From Ardenticatenia bacterium (lineage in GTDB: Bacteria; Chloroflexota; Anaerolineae; Ardenticatenales; Ardenticatenaceae): a DNA stretch of 64,000 nt. Below are positions 21,094 to 28,781 of the stretch, one piece after another; position 1 is the stretch's first letter, and each line of letters opens with the position of its first letter. A model generated the notes under the pieces. The model saw only the letters and a program-made list of their open reading frames with translations. It had not been told where the DNA came from and did not search any database. Location of the stretch: NCBI GenBank assembly GCA_030949995.1, contig JAUZRY010000079.1, positions 17,981-81,980 on the forward strand, written 5' to 3'. The position numbers were made by a program, and so were the translations under genes.

Positions 21094-21122
21094 TTGACAC
21101 GATGTGCGCCTTCCGCTACAAT
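21094..21122 (+). promoter_or_regulatory. Near-consensus sigma70 promoter of alaS
   Basis: TTGACA, 17 bases, TACAAT, with the alaS ATG about 50 bases after the predicted start. Its position inside the longer alaS ORF argues for the internal ATG at 21180. I see nothing else in 20902-21093. Confidence 0.85.
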
Positions 21123-21179
21123 CCAAAACATACAAGCGGGTCGGCCGGTCAACGCGAGGGCACAGGTAGGGTGAAAGCA

Positions 21180-23852
21180 ATGAGTGTACCCAAGTCAAGT
21201 CACGATATCCGCCGGACATTTCTGGAGTACTTCGCGGAGTTGGGCCATGAAATCGTGCCCAGCTCCTCACTGGTGCCGGCCGGTGATCCCACCCTGCTCT
21301 TCACCAATGCCGGCATGAACCAGTTCAAGGACCTCTTCTTGGGGCTGGAGAAACGCTCCTACACGCGCGCCGCTTCTGCCCAGAAGTGTATGCGCGTCTC
21401 GGGCAAGCACAACGACCTGGAGAATGTAGGCCCATCCCCGCGCCACCACACCTTCTTCGAAATGTTGGGCAACTTCAGCTTCGGCGATTACTTCAAGAAA
21501 GAGGCCATCGAGTACGCCTGGGTGTTGCTTACGGACGTGTTCCAGTTGCCTGTGGAGCGCCTGTGGGCAACGGTCTACCTGGATGACGATGAGGCGTTCG
21601 AGTACTGGACACGCTTCCTCCCCCCGGAGCGCATCTTGCGCTTCGGCAAGGAAGAGAACTTCTGGGAAATGGGGGAGACCGGGCCGTGCGGCCCCTGCTC
21701 CGAGATCCACTACTACTTGGGGCCCCTCGATCAACAGACGGCCGAAGGTGTCAACCGCGACGACGAGTACGTCGAGCTCTGGAACCTGGTCTTCATGCAG
21801 TTCGACCGGGACGCCGATGGGAACATGACCCCCTTGCCCAAACCCTCCATTGACACGGGCATGGGGCTGGAACGCATTGCCATGGTGATGCAAGGGGTCC
21901 GGAGCACCTATGAGACTGACCTGTTTCTGCCCATCATGGACCGCATCCAGGCGCTGCTAGGCCACACGGACGCCGACCGCCAGGCCAACACGATTGGCTA
22001 CCGGGTAATTGCCGACCACCTGCGGGCAGCCACTTTCCTGGTGGGCGACGGCGTGCTGCCCGGCAGCGAAGGGCGCAGCTACGTGGCGCGTCTGATCTTG
22101 CGGCGGGCCATGCGGTTCGGCCATCAGTTGGGCTTCGACGACCCCTTTGTGGCCCAAGTGGCCGAAACGGTGATCGACGAATACGGCCACCACTACCAGG
22201 AGCTGAAGGAGCGGCAAGACTTCATCCTCCAAGTCCTGGCTCAGGAGGAAGAGCGCTTCCGCCAGACGCTCGAGACGGGCACCGCCCTCCTCGACGAGTT
22301 GTTGGACCGGCTCGAACAGAGGGGGGAGCACGTGGTGCCCGGCGAAGAAGCCTTCCGCCTCTACGACACGTATGGGTTCCCCTATGACTTGACCCGCCTC
22401 ATCGCCGAGGAGCGGGGCTTCTCCGTGGATCGCGCGGGGTTCGACCGCGCCATGGCCGAACAGCGGGCCAAGGCCCGTGCGGCCAGCGCCTTCGACACCG
22501 AGAAATGGGCCTACCGGTACCGGGACGTGGATGCGGCCTGCTCGTTTGTGGGCTACGATTACAGCCAGTTGACAGAGGTGCCAACGCAGATTCTGGTCAT
22601 CTTCCGCGATGGCGAGCGCGTTCCGGCGGCCCGTGCGGGCGATACCGTGGAACTTGTGCTCAGTGTCACCCCCTTCTACGCCGAAGGGGGTGGTCAAGTG
22701 GCCGACGCGGGCATCGTCGAAACGGACTACGGCCGTGTGCTGATCACCGACGTGCAGCGCGCCCGTGAGGACTTGTGGGTCCACTTCGGGACTGTCGTCG
22801 AGGGCACTATCCGGGAGCTGGAGAGTGCTCGGGCCTCCGTGGACGTGGAACGCCGCTGGGACATCATGCGCAACCACACCGCCACACACCTCCTCCACCG
22901 GGCCTTGCGCAACGTCTTGGGCGAACACGCCGAACAGCGGGGCTCGCTCGTAGCACCCGACTACCTGCGCTTTGACTTCCTTCACCTTCAAGCAGTCACC
23001 CGCGAGGAGCTTAGGCGCATTGAACAGGAGGTCGTCGAGCACATCATGGCCGACGAGGCAGTCACGTGGGAGTACATGCCCCGCCAGGAAGCCATGGCCC
23101 AGGGGGTGACGGCCCTCTTCGGCGAGAAGTACGGCGAGACGGTGCGCGTGCTTCGCATCGGCAGCCCTGATGGGCGCAACGGCCGGGGGGAGATCTACTC
23201 GGCCGAGCTGTGCGGGGGCACCCACGTCATCCACACCGGTCAAATCGGCCCCTTCCTCATTGTGAGCGAGAGCAGCATCGGCAACAGTATTCGGCGCATT
23301 GTGGCCTACACCGGCCGCAAAGCCACTGAATACATCCGCGAACACCTCGACCACTGGAACGACATGGCCCGTGCATTGGGCGTGCCGGCAGAGCGGCTGC
23401 CCGCCCACGTGCGCACCTTGGATGTGGAATTGCATCGACGGGAGAAGATCATTGCCGACCTGCGGCGCAAGCTGGCCAGCCTTCAGGTCCGGGAACTGGT
23501 GGAGCATCACCAGAGCCGCGTGGACGGTGTGCCGGTGGTGGCTGCTCGAGTGGAGGCCTTGGGCACCGAACATCTGCGCGATCTGGCTGATCTGGTGCGC
23601 GACCGCCTGGGCTCTGGCGTGGCTGTCCTGGGCACGGTCAGTGACGGAAAACCCCTCCTTGTGGCCGCAGTGACGCCCGACCTGGCCGAGCGTGGCCTCC
23701 ACGCCGGCCACCTGGCCAAACATGTGGCCCAACTGATGGGCGGTGGCGGCGGCGGCCGGCCCACCATGGCCCAGGCCGGCGGACGGGACGCCACCAAGTT
23801 GCCCGAGGCGCTCCAACAGGTGCCCGACATCGTGCGCCAGATGTTGGCTTGA
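21180..23852 (+). CDS. alaS: Alanine--tRNA ligase
   Basis: An 890-residue class II synthetase that charges tRNA-Ala. Order of domains: catalytic core beginning SHDIRRTFLEYFAELGHEIVPSSSLVP with LLFTNAGMNQFKD (motif 1 region), ETGPCGPCSEIHY and GMGLERIAMVMQG; then the editing domain with the zinc site HTATHLLHRAL and CGGTHVIHTG; then a C-terminal domain rich in Gly ending LPEALQQVPDIVRQML. Length is normal and there is no frame break. The first ATG after the promoter is at 21180. It heads a run of rightward genes (actin-like ATPase, baseplate J-like, ruvX, mltG), although a 169-base gap without an obvious terminator separates it from the next gene. Confidence 0.97.
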   Translation: MSVPKSSHDIRRTFLEYFAELGHEIVPSSSLVPAGDPTLLFTNAGMNQFKDLFLGLEKRSYTRAASAQKCMRVSGKHNDLENVGPSPRHHTFFEMLGNFSFGDYFKKEAIEYAWVLLTDVFQLPVERLWATVYLDDDEAFEYWTRFLPPERILRFGKEENFWEMGETGPCGPCSEIHYYLGPLDQQTAEGVNRDDEYVELWNLVFMQFDRDADGNMTPLPKPSIDTGMGLERIAMVMQGVRSTYETDLFLPIMDRIQALLGHTDADRQANTIGYRVIADHLRAATFLVGDGVLPGSEGRSYVARLILRRAMRFGHQLGFDDPFVAQVAETVIDEYGHHYQELKERQDFILQVLAQEEERFRQTLETGTALLDELLDRLEQRGEHVVPGEEAFRLYDTYGFPYDLTRLIAEERGFSVDRAGFDRAMAEQRAKARAASAFDTEKWAYRYRDVDAACSFVGYDYSQLTEVPTQILVIFRDGERVPAARAGDTVELVLSVTPFYAEGGGQVADAGIVETDYGRVLITDVQRAREDLWVHFGTVVEGTIRELESARASVDVERRWDIMRNHTATHLLHRALRNVLGEHAEQRGSLVAPDYLRFDFLHLQAVTREELRRIEQEVVEHIMADEAVTWEYMPRQEAMAQGVTALFGEKYGETVRVLRIGSPDGRNGRGEIYSAELCGGTHVIHTGQIGPFLIVSESSIGNSIRRIVAYTGRKATEYIREHLDHWNDMARALGVPAERLPAHVRTLDVELHRREKIIADLRRKLASLQVRELVEHHQSRVDGVPVVAARVEALGTEHLRDLADLVRDRLGSGVAVLGTVSDGKPLLVAAVTPDLAERGLHAGHLAKHVAQLMGGGGGGRPTMAQAGGRDATKLPEALQQVPDIVRQMLA

Positions 23853-24021: not shown

Positions 24022-25272
24022 ATGGCCAGAGAACAAAAACCGCGTCGTACCCGGCCGCCTGCTGAAAACCAATCCCAGCGACGCGCGCTGCTCGACTTCG
24101 GCGCGAGTGGCGCGCGTGCCTTGTTGGTCGAGATGACCCCTGACGGGGCTGAAGTCCTGGGCTACGGCACGGCCGCGGGCAAGACAGGGTTCGTGGAACC
24201 AGGACACGCTGTGCGCCGGGACGTGATCCTGCGCTTGGCCGAGACAGCGCTCACAGCCGCCGAACAGGAGACCACCCGCTACAACGCCCTGCCGGCCATC
24301 GCCGACGCGGCCCTCGTCTGCGTGAGCGGCCCGCTGTTGGAGACAGTGCCGGTGGTGCTCGACGTCAAGCGCGAGCGCCCCCGGACTCCTCTCTCCGCTG
24401 AGGAGTTCGAGCGCGCCTGGAAGCGTATCTGTCGGCGGGTCATCGACCGAGTGCACGAACTGGAGACTGAAGATCACGTCCGCCGGCGCCTGGTCACGGT
24501 GGAGTTTGTGGGCGCTGCTGTGGGCTCCCGTCAGCTCGTCACCTTTCCCGGGCCTGCCGGCACCACCCTCAGTGTAGCCGCCTGTGGGTTCACCTGGCCT
24601 GAGACTGGCCTCGACGTACTCCACCAAGTTGTGGCTGACCTGGAGCTGGAGCTCATGGAAGTGGTGCCGGCCTTGCAGGCGGTCGCGCGCGTGCTCCCAG
24701 TGGCCGAGGCCGTGTTGGTAGACGTGGGCCAGGTTCACACGGCCATTGGCCTGGTGGAGCATCACCGCCTGAGCCGCTCGGCCGATGTGTTGAAGGGAGG
24801 CCACTTCTTCACCGCGCGCATCCGTGCGGCCCTGCGCATCTCCGAGCGTGCTGCCGAGGTGGCCAAACGACAATACGCGCTCGGTCACGGCGCGCCCGAT
24901 GCCCGCGCGCGCCTGGCCGACGTGTTGGAGGCGGCTGTTGAGGATTGGGCCGACGAAGTGGAGCAGGTGCTCATTCGCCTGGCAGCTTCGGTTCCCTTGC
25001 CCCCACGCATCTACATTTTCGGAGGAGGAGGGCGCCTGCCTGAGATCCTCTCCGTGTTGCGGCGGAGAAATTGGACGTCCCCTCTGCCGTTTCCGACGCG
25101 GCCCGCCGTGGACCGTCTCCTCCCCAATCGACTCCACGGCACACGGGACCCCCACGGCCTCCTGCAAACTCCGGAACAGGTGGCCATCGCGGCATTGGCG
25201 GCTTGGACGGCCTACCGGCCAGATGATGTAGAAGAGGTAGCCTGGCGTGGGTGGCAGGCGGTGGCAGGGTGA
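24022..25272 (+). CDS. FtsA/PilM-like actin-fold ATPase
   Basis: A ~416-residue cytosolic protein of the actin-like ATPase superfamily. Phosphate-1 motif ALLDFGASGARAL, phosphate-2 VLVDVGQVHTAIGLV, and adenosine motif IYIFGGGGRLPEI are in the usual order, with an SHS2-like insertion between the first two. This pattern fits FtsA and PilM, not MreB or ParM. I see no C-terminal amphipathic helix of the FtsA type; the C-terminus ends in a short acidic stretch. The next gene, 18 bases downstream, encodes a single-pass membrane protein, reminiscent of the PilM-PilN arrangement. ATG at 24022 is preferred over one at 23986. Role in division or envelope assembly is inference. Confidence 0.65.
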   Translation: MAREQKPRRTRPPAENQSQRRALLDFGASGARALLVEMTPDGAEVLGYGTAAGKTGFVEPGHAVRRDVILRLAETALTAAEQETTRYNALPAIADAALVCVSGPLLETVPVVLDVKRERPRTPLSAEEFERAWKRICRRVIDRVHELETEDHVRRRLVTVEFVGAAVGSRQLVTFPGPAGTTLSVAACGFTWPETGLDVLHQVVADLELELMEVVPALQAVARVLPVAEAVLVDVGQVHTAIGLVEHHRLSRSADVLKGGHFFTARIRAALRISERAAEVAKRQYALGHGAPDARARLADVLEAAVEDWADEVEQVLIRLAASVPLPPRIYIFGGGGRLPEILSVLRRRNWTSPLPFPTRPAVDRLLPNRLHGTRDPHGLLQTPEQVAIAALAAWTAYRPDDVEEVAWRGWQAVAG

Positions 25273-25290
25273 ACGGGTCGTGAGCGTCCA

Positions 25291-26841
25291 ATGAGCGAGA
25301 TGGCTCGAACCGAACAGATCGTCCACTTAGAAGGCAATGAGGACGTTCACGCCGTGCGGGGCATCATCGCCCGCGCGCAGGCCGAGCGCCTAGTGCTGGT
25401 CGTGCCCCGCGGTCACAGGGCTTTTCGCTCGTTGGTGCGGCTCAAGCTCATCGCCCGACAGGCTCACGACCGCGGAGTGGACATTGCCCTGGTGACGCGG
25501 GACCCTGACGTGCGTGAGCTGGCCCGTGACATCCGCCTGGCGACCTTTCGCTCTGTGGGGGCTGCCCAAAAGGCCGACCGGTGGCGTCAGCCCTCGGCCA
25601 ATGCGTTGGATTCCACTAACGGCCACTACCGGGCTCCCCTGGACTGGCAACGGGGGCGTGAGGCCGTGCTCGCCCGTCGGGAACAGCTCGGGGCACCGGC
25701 CAACTGGGTGGACCGGTTCGTGCTCTTGGGCCTGGTGCTCGGCGTACTGATCGTGATCGTGGCCGGCGCTGTGCTCGTGGTCCCGGCGGCCACGATCACC
25801 CTGATCCCCGCCCAGTCCGAGCTGAACGTGCCCTTCGAGTTCACCGCCGACGTGAGGGCTGAAGGCGTTTTCCTGCGACAGGGGCGCATTCCGGCCCAGC
25901 GCCACGTGATCACCGTTGAGGGCACAGCCCAGACCGCGACCAGCGGGCGCAAGGATGTGCCGGATAAGCCGGCCACAGGCGCTGTGACGTTTGTCAACCT
26001 CTTGCCCCAAGACGTGCCCATTCCGGCCGGCACAATCGTGCGCACCAGCGCCGCCGTCCCCATCCGCTTTCGTACCACCGAAGACGCTGTAGTGCCCGCC
26101 AACGGTCGCGTGTCCGTGCCGGTGGAGGCATTGAACCCTGGACCCACGGGCAACGTGGGCGCTATGTTGATTAACCAGGTAGAGGGTCCTGCTTCTACGG
26201 CTGTGCGTGTCTTCAACCCCGAGCCCACTCAGGGTGGAACTGTGCGCCAAGTCCAGGTGGTCACGGCGGCCGACAAGGACCAATTGCGCGCTCAACTCTC
26301 CCAACGTTTAGCCCAGGAGGCCCGCACGGCCTTGGAGCGAGCTGTGCCCGAGGGCTTTGTGCTGGTGCCGGGAAGCGTCACCATCGAGCCGGTGACCGAA
26401 ACCTTTGACCGCCTGGTAGACGAACAGGCCGACGTGCTGATGCTCCAATACCGGCTGCGCGCTTCCGGGCTCATTGTGAACCAGCGCGACGTGCTGCGTG
26501 TGGGCAGGCGGACCGTTCAGGCTCAAGTTCCTCCAGACCGCATTCTCCTGGAAGAGGGCTTTCGCGTCCAGTTGATGAGCGGTGAACCCCTGGGCGACGG
26601 TGAGATGCGCGTGACGGCTACCGTCACCGGGGTCACGGCCGCGCGCATTGACGGCAACGCCGTGCGCGACTTGGTGCGAGGTCAGCCCGTAGATGAGGCC
26701 TATGCCGTGTTGGTGCAGCGCTTGCCCCTCGCCGCCGACCCCGGGATTGACCTCTCGCCAGCCTGGTGGTCCCGAATGCCCTACTTGCCCCTGCGCATCA
26801 CCGTGCGGGTGGCTGCCCTGCCCCCGTCACCGGGAGGATAA
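25291..26841 (+). CDS. Bitopic membrane protein with baseplate J/gp47-like extracytoplasmic domain
   Basis: A 516-residue protein in three parts: a cytosolic Rossmann-like domain (about 1-110) with LVLVVPRGHRAFRSLVRLKLIARQA and VDIALVTRDPDV; one membrane helix (about 142-165); and an extracytoplasmic region with the segment AVTFVNLLPQDVPIPAGTIVRT...VSVPVEALNPGPTGNV, which matches the core of baseplate J/gp47 proteins. No phage genes are nearby, so this is a chromosomal envelope protein that uses the same fold. It lies between the actin-like ATPase and ruvX with tight spacing. Similar membrane-anchored baseplate J-like proteins occur in Chloroflexota and candidate phyla genomes; their function is unknown. 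Confidence 0.65.
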   Translation: MSEMARTEQIVHLEGNEDVHAVRGIIARAQAERLVLVVPRGHRAFRSLVRLKLIARQAHDRGVDIALVTRDPDVRELARDIRLATFRSVGAAQKADRWRQPSANALDSTNGHYRAPLDWQRGREAVLARREQLGAPANWVDRFVLLGLVLGVLIVIVAGAVLVVPAATITLIPAQSELNVPFEFTADVRAEGVFLRQGRIPAQRHVITVEGTAQTATSGRKDVPDKPATGAVTFVNLLPQDVPIPAGTIVRTSAAVPIRFRTTEDAVVPANGRVSVPVEALNPGPTGNVGAMLINQVEGPASTAVRVFNPEPTQGGTVRQVQVVTAADKDQLRAQLSQRLAQEARTALERAVPEGFVLVPGSVTIEPVTETFDRLVDEQADVLMLQYRLRASGLIVNQRDVLRVGRRTVQAQVPPDRILLEEGFRVQLMSGEPLGDGEMRVTATVTGVTAARIDGNAVRDLVRGQPVDEAYAVLVQRLPLAADPGIDLSPAWWSRMPYLPLRITVRVAALPPSPGG

Positions 26842-26842
26842 T

Positions 26843-27322
26843 GTGGCCAGGGAGGAGACCAAGCGTCCCACATTGGGCATTGATTACGGGGAGTGCCGGG
26901 TGGGTGTGGCCTTCAGCCTGGGCTATGTGCCCCGTGCGCTGGCCGTTCTCCCCCACGGTGACATGGTTTCCCTCGTCAAACGCATCGTGGCCATCGCCGA
27001 GCGCGAAGGGGCCGAACAGATCGTGGTCGGATGGCCTCTCAACGCCGACGGCACGGAAGGCGAACAGGCCCGCAAGAGCCGCACCTTTGCGGAAGCACTG
27101 GCTGCGGCGACGTCGCTGCCCGTCTACCTGTGGGACGAGCGCTTCACCAGCCAAGAAGCCCTCCACCAGATGATCGCCGCCGGCACTCGCCGAAAGGCGC
27201 GCCGCCACCGCTTGGACGCCGTGGCTGCGGCCTTGATTCTTCAGGATTTTTTCGAGCAAGCTGGTGTCAGTGCCCGGCGAGTCTCCTCCCCCGGAACCAA
27301 ACGGAAAGGCCAAGAGGAGTAA
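26843..27322 (+). CDS. ruvX: RuvX/YqgF family Holliday-junction-resolvase-like nuclease
   Basis: A 159-residue RNase H-fold protein with all YqgF landmarks: LGIDYGECRVGVA, IVVGWPLNADGT, WDERFTSQEA and DAVAAALIL. Family members act as a pre-16S rRNA nuclease and possibly as a Holliday junction resolvase. The GTG at 26843 has GGGAGG five bases upstream and follows the previous stop by one base, so translation is probably coupled. The longer ORF from 26693 lies inside the previous gene and is rejected. Its C-terminal tail (VSSPGTKRKGQEE) is short and basic. Confidence 0.93.
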   Translation: MAREETKRPTLGIDYGECRVGVAFSLGYVPRALAVLPHGDMVSLVKRIVAIAEREGAEQIVVGWPLNADGTEGEQARKSRTFAEALAAATSLPVYLWDERFTSQEALHQMIAAGTRRKARRHRLDAVAAALILQDFFEQAGVSARRVSSPGTKRKGQEE

Positions 27323-27332
27323 CAGGTTGTCC

Positions 27333-28781
27333 ATGAATCAACTGGAACGGGAACTGGCCGACGTGGTCGGCGAACTACAACGCGTCCAGCAGGAGCTGCG
27401 CGAGGCGGCTGCCCGGTGGAATGAGCTCCGCCAGGAGAGACGGCCCGACAAGAAGGCCATTGCCGAACTCGAAGCCCTGATGGCCACCTTGCGCCGCCGG
27501 CGTGGCGAGTTGCAAGACCGACACCTGGCCCTCCGCCGACAGATGGCCGGCAAGGAGGCGGTTGACTTCCGCCCTGTATCCCCATCCCATCCTGCGACTC
27601 GGCGGAAGCCGAGGGCCCTTGGGCGGGCGGTGCTGGCCCTGGTGATGGTCGCTGCCGTGGTTGCCGGGGTGGGATTGGGCGCCCTGTGGGGAGTTACCCG
27701 CCTGCTTGCCCCGCCGCCGCTGAGGGGCGTGGCATCGGAGACCGAAGCAGAGACGGTGCTGGACGAAGACCCCAAGAGCTTGGAACAGCGCCTTATTGGC
27801 CTCTACTTGGCCTTTCGCCGCGATGACCTCATGCGGCCGGCCGGCGATGATGATACGCCGGTGATCTTCGTGGTCGAACCGGGTGAGACCGCTGTGACCA
27901 TCGCACACCGCTTGGAGGCAGAAGGGCTCATCACCGATGCCAACCTCTTCCGCAGGCTCCTCGTCTACCGGGGCGCCGACCAGAAACTGGCCGCCGGCAC
28001 GTATCAGTTGCGCCGTACCATGACGATGGACGAGATCATTCTGGCCCTTCAGGCCGGGCGTCCTGAGGAGATCGTGATCACCATCCCGGAGGGGTGGCGA
28101 GCCGAGGAGATCGCCACACACTTGGAAGCCCAAGGGCTCTTCTCGGCCGACGCCTACTTGGCTCTGGTGCGTGATCCGGCGCGCTTTCGAGAGGAGTTCC
28201 CCTTCTTGCAGGACGTGCCTGCCGGCACTACCTTGGAGGGCTTTCTCTTCCCGGACACGTACCGTGTTGTCAAGGGTGAAGCTGATCCAGAGGCGTTCAT
28301 CCGAATGCAACTGGCCACCTTTGACCGGCGGGTGACCAAAGAGCTCCGGGAGGGCATGGCTGCCAAGGGCATGACGTTATACGAGGGCATCATCCTCGCC
28401 AGCTTGGTGGAGCGCGAGGCGGTGGTGGACGATGAGCGCCCGCTCATCGCGGGCGTCTTCGAGAACCGCTGGCGTGATGGCATGTTATTAAACGCGGACC
28501 CCACCGTCCAATACGCCCTTGGTTACCAGGAGGACCAAGGCACATGGTGGAAACGGCCCCTGACCTTGGAGGACTTGGAGGTGGACTCCCCTTACAACAC
28601 GTACAAATACCCAGGACTCCCTCCTGGCCCCATCTGTAACCCCGGCCTAGCTGCCATTCGGGCAGTGGCCTTGGCCCCCCCTACCGATTTCTACTATTTC
28701 GTGGCCCGAGGGGACGGCACCCACGTCTTCGCCCGAACGTTGGAGGAACACTTGCAAAACGTGGAACGATATCGCCGGTAG
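27333..28781 (+). CDS. mltG: Endolytic murein transglycosylase MltG with N-terminal coiled coil
   Basis: Cleaves nascent glycan strands in the membrane-proximal wall and so sets their length. About 482 residues: a predicted coiled coil (about 1-65, LERELADVVGELQRVQQELREA), one membrane helix (about 95-117), a LysM-like segment (VVEPGETAVTIAHRLEAEGLI), and the YceG catalytic domain with IPEGWRAEEIA, LEGFLFPDTY and the catalytic Glu in LASLVEREA, then ADPTVQYAL and SPYNTYKYPGLPPGPICNPG. The cytosolic coiled coil is longer than in Escherichia coli MltG. Start: ATG 27333 or TTG 27327, both behind GAGGAG; the ORF-track GTG at 27264 would overlap ruvX by 59 bases. Confidence 0.92.
   Translation: MNQLERELADVVGELQRVQQELREAAARWNELRQERRPDKKAIAELEALMATLRRRRGELQDRHLALRRQMAGKEAVDFRPVSPSHPATRRKPRALGRAVLALVMVAAVVAGVGLGALWGVTRLLAPPPLRGVASETEAETVLDEDPKSLEQRLIGLYLAFRRDDLMRPAGDDDTPVIFVVEPGETAVTIAHRLEAEGLITDANLFRRLLVYRGADQKLAAGTYQLRRTMTMDEIILALQAGRPEEIVITIPEGWRAEEIATHLEAQGLFSADAYLALVRDPARFREEFPFLQDVPAGTTLEGFLFPDTYRVVKGEADPEAFIRMQLATFDRRVTKELREGMAAKGMTLYEGIILASLVEREAVVDDERPLIAGVFENRWRDGMLLNADPTVQYALGYQEDQGTWWKRPLTLEDLEVDSPYNTYKYPGLPPGPICNPGLAAIRAVALAPPTDFYYFVARGDGTHVFARTLEEHLQNVERYRR

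Follow-up and report, generated by a model that had tools for sequence, protein, structure and literature searches.

The bitopic membrane protein that is encoded between alaS and ruvX in Chloroflexota, named BPJ in this analysis, is most likely a sensor of the cell wall and not a component of a phage-like machine. We give about even credence to the reading that this protein, a single-pass receptor or scaffold ancestral to Chloroflexota, reads the state of the wall or envelope. The window, that is, the whole stretch of 64,000 nucleotides of an Ardenticatenia bacterium that was analysed here, had been interpreted in a first-pass annotation as plausibly containing an undescribed envelope apparatus; what survives of that interpretation is a conserved, undescribed bitopic protein with an actin-fold ATPase in peptidoglycan-bearing cells, and what finds no support is a contractile or pilus-like apparatus. 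The relevant features of the window are the following:

21102..23852, + strand: alaS (open reading frame), which anchors the conserved order at its upstream end
24022..25272, + strand: FtsA/PilM/EutJ-like actin-fold ATPase, 416 aa (profile matches, motifs)
25291..26841, + strand: BPJ, bitopic membrane protein, 516 aa (Pfam, hydropathy, model)
25291..25593, + strand: BPJ cytosolic head, residues 1-101, four beta-alpha units (AlphaFold, Foldseek)
25726..25782, + strand: BPJ transmembrane helix, residues 146-164 (hydropathy 3.15)
25954..26241, + strand: BPJ baseplate-J/gp47-like beta domain, residues 222-317 (Pfam, solved structures)
26843..27322, + strand: ruvX (YqgF), GTG start (PF03652, 1.2e-34)
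27333..28781, + strand: mltG, endolytic transglycosylase, 482 aa, ATG start (MltG/YceG Pfam, 1.5e-85)

All five genes are read from the + strand and are separated, in the order alaS, ATPase, BPJ, ruvX and mltG, by 169, 18, 1 and 10 bases, and no convincing promoter or terminator was found between them on that strand. The tight cluster of the last four genes described in the first-pass annotation is thereby borne out in its coordinates and in the 18-base spacing of ATPase and BPJ, and the order recurs phylum-wide. By Pfam, neither RuvX nor MltG departs from its family; for mltG, a longer GTG frame begins at 27264. The first part of MltG (window 27333-27620) is a charged, coiled-coil-like cytosolic N-terminal segment of about 95 residues that precedes a single transmembrane helix; in Enterococcus, the equivalent cytosolic segment of MltG is a kinase target.

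BPJ is composed of the cytosolic head, a linker, a single strong transmembrane helix, as had been proposed, and an outer domain of about 350 residues (165-516). The outer domain had been described as baseplate J/gp47-like, and a profile search with 25291-26841 returned Pfam Baseplate_J for residues 222-317 at 3e-9, above the cut-off, together with a phage baseplate-wedge family at 3e-15; the same residues match solved baseplate proteins, and the Baseplate_J match is present in 19 of the 21 members of the BPJ alignment. The baseplate likeness extends to about 100 of the outer residues and no further, so that the description is accurate for residues 222-317 and not for the remaining outer residues, which are conserved among relatives and matched no known family in Pfam and profile searches. 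A whole-protein AlphaFold run with two sequences gave the outer domain a pLDDT of about 30, below 50, and fold-search matches derived from it were ignored. The head modelled alone is, by comparison, confidently predicted (pLDDT 89.7, pTM 0.82) to be a domain of alternating strands and helices, for which Foldseek returns as closest solved folds the STAS domains of anti-anti-sigma factors and transporters, at a TM of 0.56-0.63 and an E-value of only 0.013 that does not reach significance. Pfam detects no STAS domain in the head, and in a profile comparison with STAS sequences (P 0.0007-0.0045) an mltG control scored equally well; the likeness appears weak, and "STAS-like" is used here as a description of predicted shape and not of family membership. 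Pfam likewise gives no match to PASTA repeats or to a kinase domain in the BPJ of the window.

Relatives were sought within Chloroflexota, in a class sample of 150 genomes and a phylum sample of 251 genomes. BPJ is a core gene: it was found in 139 of the class genomes (101 of the 102 of high quality) and in at least 187 of the phylum genomes, in most of them as a single copy, and nearly always in the arrangement alaS-[ATPase]-BPJ-ruvX-(mltG). The alaS-BPJ-ruvX order is far beyond chance because it recurs across the phylum. In 95 of the 104 genomes for which both are listed, BPJ and mltG are neighbours on one strand, with BPJ upstream. The lack of co-conservation that would have refuted the earlier interpretation is not seen for alaS, BPJ, ruvX and mltG; the four clustered genes do not, however, behave as the single unit that it had envisaged, given that the ATPase is frequently missing and mltG drifts away. 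In several lineages mltG has moved elsewhere and BPJ remains beside alaS and/or ruvX, as in complete genomes (L094-L097, which we infer to fit Chloroflexus, Roseiflexus and Herpetosiphon) where a longer BPJ of about 680 aa follows alaS, ruvX adjoins in most and mltG is located elsewhere. The alaS-ruvX interval is therefore the constant partner of BPJ, mltG is less closely tied to it than was first assumed, and the adjacency of BPJ to mltG may simply reflect an older ruvX-mltG operon. In Firmicutes a regulator of wall synthesis, IreB/ReoM, is said to occupy the same alaS-ruvX slot; it differs from BPJ in being a small soluble kinase substrate of unrelated sequence.

The assignment of the upstream gene as an FtsA/PilM-like ATPase holds at the level of its family, whose profile matches the solved structures of FtsA (1e-12), EutJ (1e-11) and PilM (6e-9), whereas the window protein taken alone stays below the curated Pfam cut-offs for both FtsA (2.8e-5) and PilM_2 (0.015). 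Other members of the family match FtsA at up to 7e-17, matches to the SHS2 insert, a feature specific to FtsA, occur in some relatives, and the phosphate-1, phosphate-2 and adenosine motifs are present (nucleotide-binding motifs DFGASGARALLVE, VDVGQVHTAIGLVE and IFGGGGRLPE). FtsA is accordingly the best match of the family profile; the window ATPase nevertheless differs from it in that its C-terminus, ...EEVAWRGWQAVAG, is devoid of an amphipathic membrane helix. The same genome encodes a separate, true FtsA (L056:6203-7441, FtsA match 5e-39) whose C-terminus is an amphipathic ...WKERLTRWLTTLLPE tail and whose gene neighbourhood carries the FtsZ (tubulin) signature, whereas the window ATPase follows alaS, and the possibility that the latter is the division FtsA was ruled out. 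Since it carries no membrane tail, the window ATPase needs a membrane partner, for which BPJ would be the obvious candidate. The distribution of the two genes is asymmetric: the ATPase occurs in 8 of 20 class loci and is missing from the other 12, a strong match was obtained in 73 of the 251 phylum genomes, all 73 of which also carry BPJ, and BPJ occurs without the ATPase in 114 of the 187 BPJ-bearing phylum genomes. In 52 of the 55 genomes that list both genes the ATPase is encoded directly upstream of BPJ, the other three having split contigs; where it is missing the gap is simply closed, e.g. in L045. The ATPase, which depends on BPJ for its occurrence, is an optional partner. In one homologue (L043:8311-9606) the nucleotide-binding motifs are apparently degenerate, perhaps en route to loss.

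The relation of BPJ to the wall emerges from lineages that have lost peptidoglycan. Among genomes whose class we take as Dehalococcoidia (G155 and its relatives, from their fit to Dehalococcoides and Dehalogenimonas), BPJ is present in 21 of the 42 with a penicillin-binding wall transpeptidase and in none of the 58 without; BPJ was accordingly seen in no wall-less genome, whereas genomes that have a wall often lack BPJ. Of the phylum genomes, 183 of the 217 that encode mltG also carry BPJ, as do 4 of the 34 that do not, three of these four being less than 90% complete, and none of the 20 genomes tested that lack both mltG and BPJ has the transpeptidase. A single loss of peptidoglycan has been reconstructed in Dehalococcoidia (PMC10284905). 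Because relatives share their history, the correlation between BPJ and wall loss rests mainly on one major loss event and not on dozens of independent ones. Several wall-bearing lineages are also devoid of BPJ, with alaS, ruvX and mltG in direct adjacency, and BPJ is therefore not required for a wall.

A further line of evidence comes from a phylum family of large genomes (f69), which is probably Ktedonobacteria, and in which Ser/Thr kinase domains are joined by a helix to the outer domain of BPJ, Pfam reporting Pkinase (1e-41, 9e-46 and 2e-40) and Baseplate_J in the same proteins. The fusions were located as follows:

L058:6452-9178, L059:992-3556 and L059:3774-6305: Ser/Thr kinase-transmembrane helix-BPJ fusions (Pfam)
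L126, L128, L129, L130, L131 and L133: Ser/Thr kinase-helix-BPJ fusions, often in tandem arrays

Further kinase-BPJ proteins are encoded in G194, G202, G249, G257, G272, G286 and G377, and the fusions recur in at least eight f69 genomes, where they are often arrayed with head-type BPJ paralogues. Genomes of this family also retain the canonical alaS-ATPase-BPJ locus (L057, L134 and L135), which continues into ruvX and mltG wherever the stretch examined includes the two. Because the outer domain is recurrently joined to Ser/Thr kinases, these architectures point to a sensing or signalling module and not to part of an apparatus. At L099:6984-9269 the outer domain of BPJ was also observed in a kinase-like protein whose kinase part is below Pfam detection and which may be a pseudokinase.

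These observations may be explained most simply by assuming that a component of the wall, or a partner attached to it, is bound by the outer domain of BPJ, in which the baseplate-J-like beta domain is followed by a conserved C-terminal half, and that the state of the wall would be relayed through the one helix to the small alpha/beta, STAS-like cytosolic head. The FtsA-like ATPase, where present, could dock on the head and act as a nucleotide-dependent readout or recruiter, comparable with PilM on PilN; in f69 the same outer domain would be wired to Ser/Thr kinases, which replace the head in paralogues. Plausible outputs are peptidoglycan synthesis or the activity of MltG, the latter being a possible target because of its location and of the Enterococcus precedent. 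A close parallel is offered by the PASTA Ser/Thr kinases (PrkC/PknB/IreK/PrkA), which resemble BPJ in that a single helix connects a signalling part in the cytosol with an outer domain of modular build, and whose PASTA repeats occupy the position that the BPJ outer domain takes in the f69 proteins. The outer domain of BPJ, however, is baseplate-J-like, and the window protein has a small alpha/beta head in the cytosol instead of a kinase. Among these kinases, IreK phosphorylates MltG and is a sensor of wall stress (PMC12369325), and Listeria PrkA controls peptidoglycan synthesis via ReoM (PMC7286690). We would entertain only tentatively, as more doubtful than probable, a phylum-wide Chloroflexota wall receptor in which a module shared with baseplates replaces PASTA and whose outputs are the STAS-like head alone, the FtsA-like ATPase or Ser/Thr kinases; on this view an actin-fold ATPase would serve as the readout of a signal and not as part of a filament or pilus.

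The main rival to a wall receptor is a scaffold of the divisome or elongasome, whereby the ATPase and BPJ would together tether wall enzymes such as MltG in position, as a second system besides FtsZ, BPJ itself being structural and not sensory. That the actin-fold ATPase is closest to FtsA, that BPJ adjoins mltG and that BPJ is restricted to wall-bearing genomes are all in keeping with such a scaffold; yet most BPJ-bearing genomes do without the ATPase, the nucleotide motifs of which seem degenerate in L043, several lineages have lost the linkage to mltG, and the kinase fusions fit signalling better, for which reasons we regard the scaffold as unlikely. Slightly less probable still is that BPJ merely hitchhikes in a stable alaS-ruvX locus and has a function unrelated to its neighbours or to the wall, for instance as an adhesin, an S-layer protein or a glycopolymer anchor. 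The existence of the alaS-ruvX-mltG order without BPJ, and the persistence of BPJ by alaS/ruvX after mltG has moved, agree with passive carriage, but the conservation of the cytosolic head and single helix, the absence of BPJ from wall-less Dehalococcoidia and the transmembrane signalling implied by the kinase fusions argue against it.

An assembly platform of the PilM-PilN type, with the ATPase and BPJ working within a pilus- or secretion-like envelope machine, is improbable. The likeness is real in that the family profile of the ATPase reaches solved PilM and that, as in PilM-PilN, an actin-fold ATPase without a membrane tail is encoded beside a bitopic inner-membrane partner, here 18 bases downstream; BPJ differs, however, in its globular head of about 100 residues and its large outer domain, no PilN-like domain was found in it by Pfam, and it dispenses with the ATPase in the majority of BPJ-bearing genomes. 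The neighbours phylum-wide are alaS, ruvX and mltG, and genes for PilN, PilO, PilP, PilB or pilin are absent from the neighbourhoods examined, so that this candidate was dropped. A domesticated contractile-tail component that still works as a baseplate-like machine is very improbable and was rejected, for the Baseplate_J match that suggests it covers just the beta domain shared with baseplate J/gp47, phage and plasmid matches span at most 22% of BPJ, a motif pattern search and further scans of viral contigs found no match, and BPJ is a membrane-anchored chromosomal core protein with no sheath, tube, spike or other tail genes near the window locus or in the relatives examined, in agreement with the lack of phage context noted at the outset.

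Wall sensing by BPJ thus remains our preferred reading, and with it we infer, with the same reserve, docking of the ATPase on the head and control of MltG or of peptidoglycan synthesis. The parts are of known kinds; the way in which they are combined, and the employment of a baseplate-type domain as a candidate wall-sensing module, appear to be undescribed, no paper on the BPJ family having been found in the literature searched. To our knowledge, almost nothing is known of how monoderm Chloroflexota monitor or remodel their wall, and BPJ provides a near-universal wall-sensor candidate with a testable ligand (peptidoglycan) and testable partners (the FtsA-like ATPase and MltG), for which the wall-less Dehalococcoidia constitute a natural experiment. 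On the Ser/Thr kinases, a baseplate-type domain would have been reused as a sensor module. The BPJ head (window 25309-25590) may also resemble uncharacterised proteins of Patescibacteria; if this resemblance is true, the BPJ family would be older than Chloroflexota.
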